From Candidatus Epulonipiscium sp. (GTDB lineage: Bacteria > Bacillota > Clostridia > Lachnospirales > JAAYNZ01), in NCBI GenBank assembly GCA_012520595.1, contig JAAYNZ010000115.1, forward strand, positions 1-34,991: DNA of 34,991 nucleotides, given 5' to 3'. Shown here piece after piece: positions 16,171 through 22,788 of the stretch; the first letter of the stretch is position 1; every line of letters begins with the position of its first letter. The notes under the pieces were generated by a model. It did no database searches. It was given only the letters and a program-made list of their open reading frames with translations, and had not been told where the DNA came from. The translations under genes and the position numbers were made by a program.

Positions 16171-18123
16171 CTATAAACAATGCATATATTCTTCTGCTCT
16201 GTTCCCTTCTACCGTATATGATTGTCCTTTAGTACAAAAAATTGAATTGGAGGTATAATGTGCATCTGCATTCTTATTATACCTTGTCTTTTCAATCACT
16301 TCGTGTGAATTATGACAAATATCATATCCATCAAAAATTACATTCATGCTTCCTTTACCTTTAGTAATCGCCACAAACTCCATGGAATAGTCCATAAATG
16401 TAGCAACAGGACCTCTTCCTATAATGATCGCTTTTTTTCTTGTGGTTTCTGGAGGATTAAAGGATCCATGTAATTTTTGTATATCTGATAAAATCCTTCC
16501 CATTTGATCCAACTCTACCTCAAATTTAAAACGATAATAAGGTTCTAACAATACGGTTTCTGACTTTTCTAACCCTTGTCGCAAGGCACGATAAGTAGCT
16601 TCTCGAAAATCACCCCCGCTAGTATGTTTATAATGAGAACGCCCTGTCAACAACGTAATTTTTAAATCTGTTATAGGAGAACCTGTTAGTATTCCATTAT
16701 GAGCCCTTTCATAAATATATGAGCGAATCAAATTTTGATATCCGATAGATAAGTCATTGACATGGCAGTGGTTTTCAAAGATAATTCCACTGTTTCTTTC
16801 AGTTGGTTCTAACATAAGATGAACCTCTGCATAATGTCCTAAAGGTTCAAAATGACCGTAACCAATAGCTGATGTATGAATGGTTTCCATATACAAAATT
16901 TCACAAGATCCAAAGTGAATTTCAAATTCAAATCTTTCAGCCACTACTTTTTTAAGTACTTCTAATTGAATTATACCTGTTACGTGAATCTGTATTTCTT
17001 TTAAAACTTCATCCCATAAGACATTCAAGGTTGGATCTTCTGCCTCTAATGTTTTAAAGCAATATAAAACATCCTTGGGATTTAAGGTGCTATCAAATAA
17101 CACCTTTGATTTTAATGTTGCTACCATATGATAAGACGACTTTGCTTTTAACATACCAACTCCATCACCAACTTTTGCTTTCGTTAACCCAGTGACTGCA
17201 AAAAGCTGTCCTGCTGAAACTTCATCTACAACCTGAAATTGATTCCCATTATATTTCCTGATTTGAGTGACTTTTTCAAAATCTTGCTTGTCTCCATCAC
17301 CATAACCTATTTCATCTCTTACTTTTAAGATCCCCTGCAAAGCTTTTATATAAGTAATCCTAGTGCCTTGTTCATCATGGCGTATTTTATAAACACGACC
17401 ACTGAATTCTCCTTGGCTTATATAATCTGTATAGGTCCAATTATGAAATATTTCTAAAAAATATTGAATTCCTTCATCTCTTAAAGCTGATCCTGCAAAA
17501 CATGGAAATAGCTTTTGTTGCTTGATCATCTCTGTCATCGTATTAAACCATCGATTTTTATCGTATCCCTCTTCAATATAAGCTTCTAGCAGATCATCGT
17601 CTCGTTCCGCAACAAACTCTACAAGTTCACGACTCATTTCTTCTTTATCTATATTTCCAGTAATCAAACAAGCATCTTGTGTAATATTTAAATGTATTTC
17701 CTCCATTACTCCTTGAATATCTGCCCCCACTCGATCCATTTTATTAACAAAGAAAAAAGTAGGAACTTGATATCTTCTTAACAAACGCCATACTGTTTCT
17801 GTATGCCCTTGTATCCCTTCTACTCCGCTAATAATGATAAGTGCATAATCCATAACTTGAATAGCTCTTTCCATTTCAGGTGAAAAGTCCATATGTCCTG
17901 GCGTATCTATAATATAATAAGTAGAATTTTTATATAAAAAAGTACCTTGATCTGAAAATATAGTAATTCCTCGATCCTTTTCTATCTTATTATAATCTAA
18001 AAAAGTATCTTTATGGTCAACTCTTCCTCTTTCTTTTATTCCTTTTCCATGATACAAAAGTTGTTCTGCAAAGGTAGTTTTACCTGCATCCACATGAGCT
18101 AGTATTCCTATTGTCTTTCGCAT
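16171..18123 (-). CDS. TetM/EF-G-like translational GTPase (ribosomal protection protein-like)
   Basis: MRKTIGILAHVDAGKTTFAEQLLYHGKGI, DRGITIFSDQGTF, IIDTPGHMDFSPEMERAIQVMDYALIIISGVEGIQGHTETVWRLL, FFVNKMDR, LLEPYYRFKFEVELDQMGRI. ATG 18123 behind AGAGGTG. Confidence 0.87.
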   Translation of the reverse strand: MRKTIGILAHVDAGKTTFAEQLLYHGKGIKERGRVDHKDTFLDYNKIEKDRGITIFSDQGTFLYKNSTYYIIDTPGHMDFSPEMERAIQVMDYALIIISGVEGIQGHTETVWRLLRRYQVPTFFFVNKMDRVGADIQGVMEEIHLNITQDACLITGNIDKEEMSRELVEFVAERDDDLLEAYIEEGYDKNRWFNTMTEMIKQQKLFPCFAGSALRDEGIQYFLEIFHNWTYTDYISQGEFSGRVYKIRHDEQGTRITYIKALQGILKVRDEIGYGDGDKQDFEKVTQIRKYNGNQFQVVDEVSAGQLFAVTGLTKAKVGDGVGMLKAKSSYHMVATLKSKVLFDSTLNPKDVLYCFKTLEAEDPTLNVLWDEVLKEIQIHVTGIIQLEVLKKVVAERFEFEIHFGSCEILYMETIHTSAIGYGHFEPLGHYAEVHLMLEPTERNSGIIFENHCHVNDLSIGYQNLIRSYIYERAHNGILTGSPITDLKITLLTGRSHYKHTSGGDFREATYRALRQGLEKSETVLLEPYYRFKFEVELDQMGRILSDIQKLHGSFNPPETTRKKAIIIGRGPVATFMDYSMEFVAITKGKGSMNVIFDGYDICHNSHEVIEKTRYNKNADAHYTSNSIFCTKGQSYTVEGNRAEEYMHCL

Positions 18124-18137
18124 TACAAACACCTCTA

Positions 18138-18851
18138 TTATTTGGTTTGACTTAACAATCGAAGATCTTTTACTTCTTTCTCTGTTAGATTCCTCCATTC
18201 ACCTGCTTTTAACCCTTTTAATGTAATATTCATAATACGAATTCGTTTTAATTTTATTACTTTATAATGAAAATGTGCACACATTCTTCTTATTTGTCGA
18301 TTTAATCCTTGAGACAGCGTAATTTTAAAAGTTCGATCATTCATTTTAGAAACTTTACAAGGTTTTGTAATGGTGTGTGATTTTTTTACAGGGTTAAAAA
18401 TCTTTACTCCTTTTGTCATGCCACTTAAAAATTCTGGAGTAATTTTTTTATTTACTGTTACAATATACTCCTTTTCATGATGATTTTCTTCTCTTAAAAT
18501 TTCATTCACAATACTTCCATCATTGGTAAGAAGGATCAACCCCTCTGAATCTTTGTCTAATCGACCAATCGGAAAAATTCGTTCCGAATGATTGATAAAA
18601 TCAATAATGTTTCCTTTTATGTGCCGTTCTGTTGTACAAGTAATTCCTACAGGTTTATTTAAGGCAATGTAAATATCATTTTTCTTTCTTTCCACTACTT
18701 TTCCATTGACTTCCACAATATCTTCCGACTCTACTATATATCCTAAGGGCGCTATGTTTCCATTGACTTTTACTTTTCCTTGGACAATCAATTCATCTGC
18801 TTGCCTTCTCGAACAAAGTCCTGTTGAACTAATAAAGTTATTAAGCCGCAT
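18138..18851 (-). CDS. rluF: 23S rRNA pseudouridine synthase, RluF-like
   Basis: S4 domain [84 protein letters not shown]. Confidence 0.9.
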
Positions 18852-20887: not shown

Positions 20888-20916
20888 TTGTAAAAGAATA
20901 TCGACTGTGCTATATT
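20888..20916 (+). promoter_or_regulatory. Sigma-A promoter driving the purine riboswitch leader
   Basis: TTGTAA (20888-20893), 17 nt, TATATT (20911-20916), about 20 nt upstream of the aptamer. Confidence 0.6.
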
Positions 20917-20937
20917 AGGATTGTTAAAAAAAGAATA

Positions 20938-21011
20938 TTCCCCATATAATCTCTGTAATAGGGTCAGAGAGTTTCTACAGGATAACCGGAAATTATCCTA
21001 CTATGGTGAGA
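20938..21011 (+). ncRNA. Purine riboswitch aptamer, guanine/hypoxanthine-type specificity base
   Basis: CCATATAATC-TCTG-tAATAGGGt-CAGA-GAGTTTCTAC-AGGATAA-CCGGAAA-TTATCCT-ACTATGG. Shows J1/2 ATATAATC, J2/3 GTTTCTAC, L2 ending GG with L3 starting CC, and J3/1 ACTATG (C rather than ATTATG). Confidence 0.93.
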
Positions 21012-21018
21012 AAGTGCA

Positions 21019-21054
21019 CAAAATAATAATATACAGAAGTATATTATTATTTTG
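21019..21054 (+). other. Long spacer stem-loop between aptamer and terminator
   Basis: CAAAATAATAATATAC / GTATATTATTATTTTG, 16-bp perfect inverted repeat with loop AGAA. Confidence 0.75.
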
Positions 21055-21070
21055 CATGGCTAGGTTTATT

Positions 21071-21108
21071 AGCTGATAATCTCACATAGATTATCAGCTT
21101 TTTTATTC
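21071..21108 (+). terminator. Riboswitch-controlled intrinsic terminator
   Basis: AGCTGATAATCT (21071-21082) / AGATTATCAGCT (21088-21099), then TTTTTATT. Confidence 0.88.
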
Positions 21109-21169: not shown

Positions 21170-22213
21170 ATGGACATTATGAAAGATTTATTGGCAGCAC
21201 TTGGAGTTATTCTAAATGGACTTCCCCAAGGGTTATTAGCATTATCTTTCGGTTTTGCCTCTGTTCCTACTGCCTTAGCTTTTCTAACAGGTGCTGTAGG
21301 AAATGCAATTACGGGTTCCGTGGCTCCTATTTCATTTCAAGCGGAAACCATTACCGTTGCTGGTACAATGGGTAAAAACATGAGAGAACGCCTCTCCATG
21401 ATTTTTATTGGAGCTGGCATTATGACAGTTATTGGAATTTTTGGTCTTTTGGAGCAAATTGTAAACTTTATTGGCCCTGTTATTACCAATGGAATGATGG
21501 CCGGTGTAGGCATTATGCTTGCTAGGGTGTCCTTGGATATGGCTAAAAAAAATAAAATAGTGGGCTTTATCTCTATGCTCGTTGGATTTGTTGTATATAT
21601 AGTAACCAATGACTTAGTATATACTATTGTCTTATCCGTAGTTATTTCCAGTGTATCATCTATTATACTAAAAAAAGATACTGCTCATGTAGAAATTCCT
21701 AGAGAAAAGTTTGTACTTCAAAAGATCACATTTAATCTGGATATTTTACGTGGTGCTCTAGCTATGGTCTGTTTAAACATAGGTGCTAATATTGCCTTCG
21801 GAAATATTACAGGTTCTATGGCAAATACAGCTGTAAACATTGATCATCTTACTGTTATCAGTAGTATAGCTGATATGGGTTCCTCTCTTTTTGGAGGTGC
21901 TCCTGTTGAATCTATCATTTCAGCTACTGGAAGTGCTCCTCATCCTGTACTTTCTGGGATTCTTATGATGGTTGCAATGGCCATTATTTTATTAAGTGGC
22001 CTCCTTCCTAAAATGGGTAAATACATCCCTAGTGAATCCATTGCTGGATTTTTATTTGTCTTAGGAGCCATCGTAACAGTACCTATCAACGCTGCTGCCG
22101 CTTTAGAAGGCGCTTCCCTTGTTGGAGGTGTAACCATGGCAGTTACTGCTATTACAGATCCTTTTTTGGGTATGCTTGCTGGTCTTGCGATGAAATTTTT
22201 TGTAGGAATTTAA
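21170..22213 (+). CDS. NCS2-like (xanthine/uracil-type) purine permease, short form
   Basis: 347 aa multi-TM; FGFASVPTALAFLTGAVGNAITGSVAPISFQAETITVAGTMG, GPVITNGMMAGVGIMLARV, SSLFGGAPVESIISATGSAPHPVLSG. Directly downstream of the riboswitch. Confidence 0.75.
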   Translation: MDIMKDLLAALGVILNGLPQGLLALSFGFASVPTALAFLTGAVGNAITGSVAPISFQAETITVAGTMGKNMRERLSMIFIGAGIMTVIGIFGLLEQIVNFIGPVITNGMMAGVGIMLARVSLDMAKKNKIVGFISMLVGFVVYIVTNDLVYTIVLSVVISSVSSIILKKDTAHVEIPREKFVLQKITFNLDILRGALAMVCLNIGANIAFGNITGSMANTAVNIDHLTVISSIADMGSSLFGGAPVESIISATGSAPHPVLSGILMMVAMAIILLSGLLPKMGKYIPSESIAGFLFVLGAIVTVPINAAAALEGASLVGGVTMAVTAITDPFLGMLAGLAMKFFVGI

Positions 22214-22239
22214 TGGAATACAATGATGGAGGAATGAAA

Positions 22240-22788
22240 ATGAATGATTTTTACACATTAACAGTCGCTAATGTTAAAAGAGAACTACCTATTATTCAAA
22301 TTAATGATGATCTAGCTATTGCTAGCTTTGTTATCTTAGGAGATACAGAAATGGTTTGTGCCGCAGCAAAAGAATTGGCCAAAAAAATTCCCGAAGTAGA
22401 TATTTTAATTACAGCAGAAGCCAAAGGGATCCCTCTCGTATTCGAAATCTCTCGAATACGAGGACATCAAAAATACATTGTTGCTCGAAAAAGTATAAAA
22501 GCCTATATGGATGAACCCTTGATCAATGAAGTAGAGTCCATTACTACGCAGAAAAAACAATTTCTCTGCTTAGATAGTACGGACGTAGAAAAAATTCAAG
22601 GTAAACGTGTGGCTATTATTGATGATGTTATTAGTACTGGTGACTCCATTCGTGCCGTAGATGAATTAGTAACGAAAGCTGGAGGTAGGGTCATTGCAAA
22701 AGCTGCTATTTTAGCAGAAGGGGATGCTGCAAATCGTGATGATATTATTTTTCTTGAAAAGCTACCCTTATTCCCTTTTCAAAAATAA
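22240..22788 (+). CDS. Purine phosphoribosyltransferase family protein (adenine PRTase-like)
   Basis: VDILITAEAKGIPLVFEISRIRGHQKYIVARKSIKAYM and PRPP loop VAIIDDVISTGDSIRAVDELVTKAGG. ATG 22240 behind GGAGG. Confidence 0.85.
   Translation: MNDFYTLTVANVKRELPIIQINDDLAIASFVILGDTEMVCAAAKELAKKIPEVDILITAEAKGIPLVFEISRIRGHQKYIVARKSIKAYMDEPLINEVESITTQKKQFLCLDSTDVEKIQGKRVAIIDDVISTGDSIRAVDELVTKAGGRVIAKAAILAEGDAANRDDIIFLEKLPLFPFQK

Follow-up and report, generated by a model that had tools for sequence, protein, structure and literature searches.

A probable guanine-sensing OFF riboswitch ahead of a transporter-phosphoribosyltransferase operon in Candidatus Epulonipiscium sp.

The leader and its aptamer

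The stretch of DNA that we analysed, hereafter the window (34,991 nt; contig JAAYNZ010000115.1 of Candidatus Epulonipiscium sp.), holds on its forward strand a leader with a purine riboswitch aptamer, an A+T hairpin and an intrinsic terminator, followed by genes for a nucleobase-transporter-like protein and a type I phosphoribosyltransferase (PRTase) (Table 1). An Rfam scan matched RF00167 at 20922-21023 (+) over model positions 1-102 of 102, i.e., the full model length, with a score of 83.7 bits (E-value of 7.2e-14) against a gathering score of 37 bits; this significant match agrees with an earlier note that had read a complete purine riboswitch from the letters, and the core motifs claimed there all lie where it had placed them. 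No other Rfam match lies in the window, and the 2.5-Mb genome has no other RF00167 match; a genome of the same genus likewise has one, and at least one match was found in 55 of 196 genomes of the order, where scores ran from 41.5 to 93.1 bits among the matches listed and 83.7 bits is typical or better. Promoter-like matches were no commoner than in shuffles, so the call of the sigma-A promoter in Table 1 rests on its position and extended -10 only.

Table 1. Coordinates of the leader features and of the two genes that follow them
Feature	Coordinates	Strand	Basis or remark
Probable sigma-A promoter	20888..20916	+	TTGTAA, 17 nt, TATATT, TG ahead of -10 (consensus scan)
Expected transcription start	near 20923	+	From predicted promoter
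Guanine-type purine riboswitch aptamer	20922..21023	+	RF00167
P1 5' strand, UCCCCAUA	20939..20946	+	cmscan structure line; pairs with 21002-21009
P2/L2, loop AAUAGGG	20950..20970	+	cmscan structure, xpt alignment
J2/3, GUUUCUAC, U47 and U51 as in consensus	20971..20978	+	Alignment to xpt
P3/L3, loop CCGGAAA	20979..20999	+	L3 CC predicted to pair with L2 GG
C74 of J3/1 and P1 3' strand, CUAUGGUGAGA (= CTATGGTGAGA)	21001..21011	+	Also antiterminator 5' strand
A+T hairpin, ~15 bp, AGAA loop	21019..21053	+	-12.4 kcal/mol; between aptamer and terminator
Intrinsic terminator, 12-bp stem, CACAT loop, then TTTTTATT	21071..21099	+	-14.8 kcal/mol
Antiterminator 3' strand, UCUCACAUAG (= TCTCACATAG)	21080..21089	+	Terminator stem top and loop
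Gene 1, 347-aa nucleobase-transporter-like protein	21170..22213	+	Weak Xan_ur_permease match; SLC26/UraA fold
Gene 2, type I phosphoribosyltransferase	22213..22788	+	NF005592/PRK07322; ORF overlaps gene 1 end

For the reference numbering we used the xpt aptamer of Bacillus subtilis. In the alignment to xpt, positions 20-25, 46-53, 60-62, 64-66 and 73-76 are identical, including U22, U47, U51 and C74, the last of which is the C at 21001 in J3/1, and neither J2/3 nor J3/1 carries an insertion (cmscan and xpt alignment). The GG and CC letters of the predicted L2-L3 tertiary contact are at 20962-20963 and 20986-20987. The sole differences from xpt among the conserved loop positions checked are a G at position 36 of L2 and a G at position 63 of L3, both of which are variable across the 34 riboswitches compared. 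The riboswitch is real and well formed, and judged by its sequence it looks functional.

Elsewhere in the window, the product of 16171-18198 (-) is an EF-G-like GTPase whose best NCBIfam match was tet_protect (420 bits against a cut-off of 775); it is distantly related to the proteins that protect ribosomes from tetracycline, and the gene does not count as a confirmed resistance determinant. A search for similar DNA in plasmid records found only distant matches, in three records.

Terminator, antiterminator and the proposed switch

The leader has a folding energy 4.45 standard deviations below that of its shuffles, and the stem of the terminator at 21071-21099 consists of perfect pairs only, ahead of the T tract TTTTTATT. 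That the 3' strand of P1 complements the terminator with a single bulge had been noticed before, and this holds exactly: CTATGGTGAGA (21001-21011) and TCTCACATAG (21080-21089) form ten Watson-Crick pairs with G21006 bulged, and this putative antiterminator uses C74 itself. The duplex energy, computed with a 12-nt P1 strand reaching 21012, is -11.3 kcal/mol, whereas shuffled terminators average -5.6 (p = 0.006), and it ranks first of 12 among the terminators of different loci; about 1% of the 29-nt stretches of the window pair equally well with the 11-nt strand 21001-21011.

Several related loci have the same geometry with different letters; in L009, L038, L039 and L044, for instance, the pairings between the P1 3' strand and the terminator come to -13.9 to -16.8 kcal/mol. 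When P1 strands and terminators were swapped among loci of the set, the excess of each locus's own pairing was not significant, either with automatically chosen terminators (p = 0.13) or with 130-nt leaders (p = 0.10), partly because the automatic choice of terminator failed in some loci (a plain error in L004 and a likely one in L006, L031 and L034, loci that seem to be otherwise arranged); as these tests were not significant, comparative support for the antiterminator is partial. Three Sporosarcina loci (L031, L036 and L046) have a P1 3' strand that pairs poorly with the terminator, and by eye CCCCUGU, which forms the 5' side of P1 in these loci, might pair with ACAUGGGG at the terminator 5' arm, a possible different layout of the antiterminator.

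When each transcript length was folded, P1 was predicted to persist until about 21080; in transcripts ending at 21089-21092 the antiterminator reached a mean pairing probability of 0.87-0.88 with P1 near zero, and at an end of 21100 the terminator had a probability of 0.98 and the antiterminator was lost. At full length without ligand, the terminator state (-49.0 kcal/mol) is better by about 4 kcal/mol than the antiterminator state (-45.2 kcal/mol); therefore the switch must be kinetic, decided during transcription, and read-through needs kinetic trapping.

We think it very probable that this is a guanine-I riboswitch that shuts OFF an operon for purine uptake and salvage through premature termination of transcription. 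Guanine (and, more weakly, hypoxanthine or xanthine) would pair with C74 in the three-way junction and stabilise P1; the ligand would hold P1 past 21089, keeping 21001-21011 engaged, the terminator would then form, and RNA polymerase would stop at the T tract near 21100-21107. In the ligand-free case, once the polymerase had copied 21080-21089, this segment would draw the P1 3' strand and C74 out of P1 and pair with them, and the duplex would mask the terminator loop and the upper end of the 5' arm for a few nucleotides, letting the polymerase pass and the transporter and phosphoribosyltransferase genes be made. Against this scheme, the antiterminator leaves the bottom 9 bp of the terminator uncovered, and these could be a nucleation site for displacing it. 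The same OFF scheme, with ligand-bound P1 freeing the terminator, had been proposed in the earlier note, and with terminator and antiterminator both present and their pairings mutually exclusive it is still the best reading, in which we infer the ligand, the direction of the switch and an antiterminator that survives long enough for read-through.

The aptamer might be genuine and the antiterminator pairing incidental, with the ligand acting via some other structure, e.g., the nearly perfect A+T hairpin at 21019-21053, and the unusual strength of that hairpin (z = -5.8 for the spacer region), the equilibrium preference for the terminator and the outcome of the swap tests all speak for this; we nonetheless consider it improbable given a ten-base-pair match that outscores both shuffled terminators and those of other loci, that the folding predicts to prevail at just the transcript lengths that matter, and whose geometry recurs with other letters in the relatives above. 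The hairpin, which the earlier note had left unnamed along with the regulated genes, is strong also in the Sporomusa loci L039 and L044, and other relatives have a weak one or none (z of about 0 in L008 and L009); we therefore rejected it as a conserved part and regard it as probably only a spacer.

Ligand class and the P1 mismatch

Contacts of the U22, U47, U51 and C74 type are kept in guanine-sensing aptamers, and for the guanine-I class hypoxanthine and xanthine are bound about ten times more weakly than guanine (PMC9295807). The reading of the J3/1 C as the mark of the guanine type holds in this core, and on these letters guanine would be the expected ligand, with hypoxanthine and xanthine weaker. 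The adenine class was ruled out by the C instead of U at position 74 (21001), and the xanthine-II class, defined by U51G and a two-nucleotide J2-3 insertion, and the guanine-II class, with a one-nucleotide insertion (PMC9295807), were ruled out by a J2/3 (GUUUCUAC) that has no insertion and retains U51. A guanine-riboswitch variant of altered specificity (adenine, 2'-dG, xanthine-II or guanine-II) might be suspected from the two loop positions that differ from xpt and from the name 'adenine phosphoribosyltransferase' carried by the family of the downstream PRTase, but those positions vary in relatives, many annotated PRTases are without an established base specificity (PMC9295807), and the junctions and C74 are as just described, which makes such a variant very unlikely. 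The riboswitch at 20922-21023 is a further ordinary guanine riboswitch of a well-known family and not a new class.

The single mismatch in P1 (20939-20946 with 21002-21009), C20941/U21007, and the L2 letters AATAGGG are both as the earlier note had them; its conclusion that the aptamer is slightly divergent is not supported, because the differences in L2 and L3 fall at positions that vary freely in relatives and 83.7 bits is high for the order, and we rejected divergence on these grounds. U21007 has no partner in P1 but pairs with A21084 once the antiterminator forms; reciprocally, G21006 is paired in P1 and bulged in the antiterminator. In yxjA of B. subtilis it is mismatches in the region of P1 and the central helix that decide the outcome (PMC9756952). 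We read the mismatch here as tuning the competition between P1 and the antiterminator rather than as divergence or decay. That it marks a decayed or non-functional remnant is scarcely credible for a high-scoring full-length match with core, terminator, antiterminator and operon all intact and the same arrangement across many genera.

Known counterparts and the downstream operon

The xpt-pbuX riboswitch of B. subtilis (guanine-I, RF00167) shares with the one described here the junction and ligand-contact positions, the L2-L3 GG/CC pairing, the terminator-type OFF logic and a purine salvage and uptake operon; it differs in L2 position 36 and L3 position 63, both G here, and in its helix sequences. 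Our leader also has an A+T hairpin separating aptamer and terminator, and its antiterminator reaches into the terminator loop and the upper part of the stem. The B. subtilis pbuE riboswitch is an adenine sensor and an ON switch, whereas C74 and the proposed OFF logic set ours apart. The two have in common an expression platform that overlaps the aptamer (for pbuE, PMC9756952) and cotranscriptional control. Also alike is yxjA, an OFF switch of a transporter gene in which an intermediate 'central helix' competes with P1 and the terminator; there, however, the ligand-binding junction has no overlap with the expression platform (PMC9756952), whereas here C74 and U75 belong to the antiterminator.

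The product of gene 1, a short membrane protein, matched PF00860 (Xan_ur_permease) below the Pfam cut-off (E-value of 5.7e-5) and no NCBIfam model, and a search by sequence found no solved structure for it. Its AlphaFold2 model (pLDDT of 87.5) had the SLC26 family as its best Foldseek match, with UraA among the matches, and the SLC26/UraA fold is common to NCS2 nucleobase transporters. Gene 2 scored above the cut-off for NF005592 (E-value of 3.4e-78), and its annotation family, PRK07322, is named 'adenine PRTase'. The PRTase at 22213-22788 combines a family name of adenine with a guanine-type riboswitch, and because the NF005592 name sits under such a riboswitch the annotated specificity may be wrong.

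The transporter and PRTase genes are adjacent in all 46 related loci compared, and 33 of these have an RF00167 riboswitch upstream, i.e., the position of the riboswitch ahead of purine-type genes is conserved in relatives. In two Viridibacillus loci a ZMP/ZTP riboswitch (RF01750) replaces the purine riboswitch (L012:2856-2933 and L014:2855-2932). Six further loci (L020, L021, L022, L023, L025 and L040) gave no riboswitch match; by eye they have upstream GTTCG words resembling PurR boxes, and several of them have CGAAC further upstream. We put at about even the chance that the 347-aa protein represents a subfamily of purine transporters that is uncharacterised, with an operon that acquired different purine sensors by genus (a guanine riboswitch, a ZTP riboswitch or possible PurR boxes).

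The locus would add a further natural case of an aptamer and an antiterminator that share both the P1 strand and the specificity nucleotide C74, and it gives a conserved and poorly annotated transporter-PRTase operon a likely signal (guanine) and mode of control (OFF).
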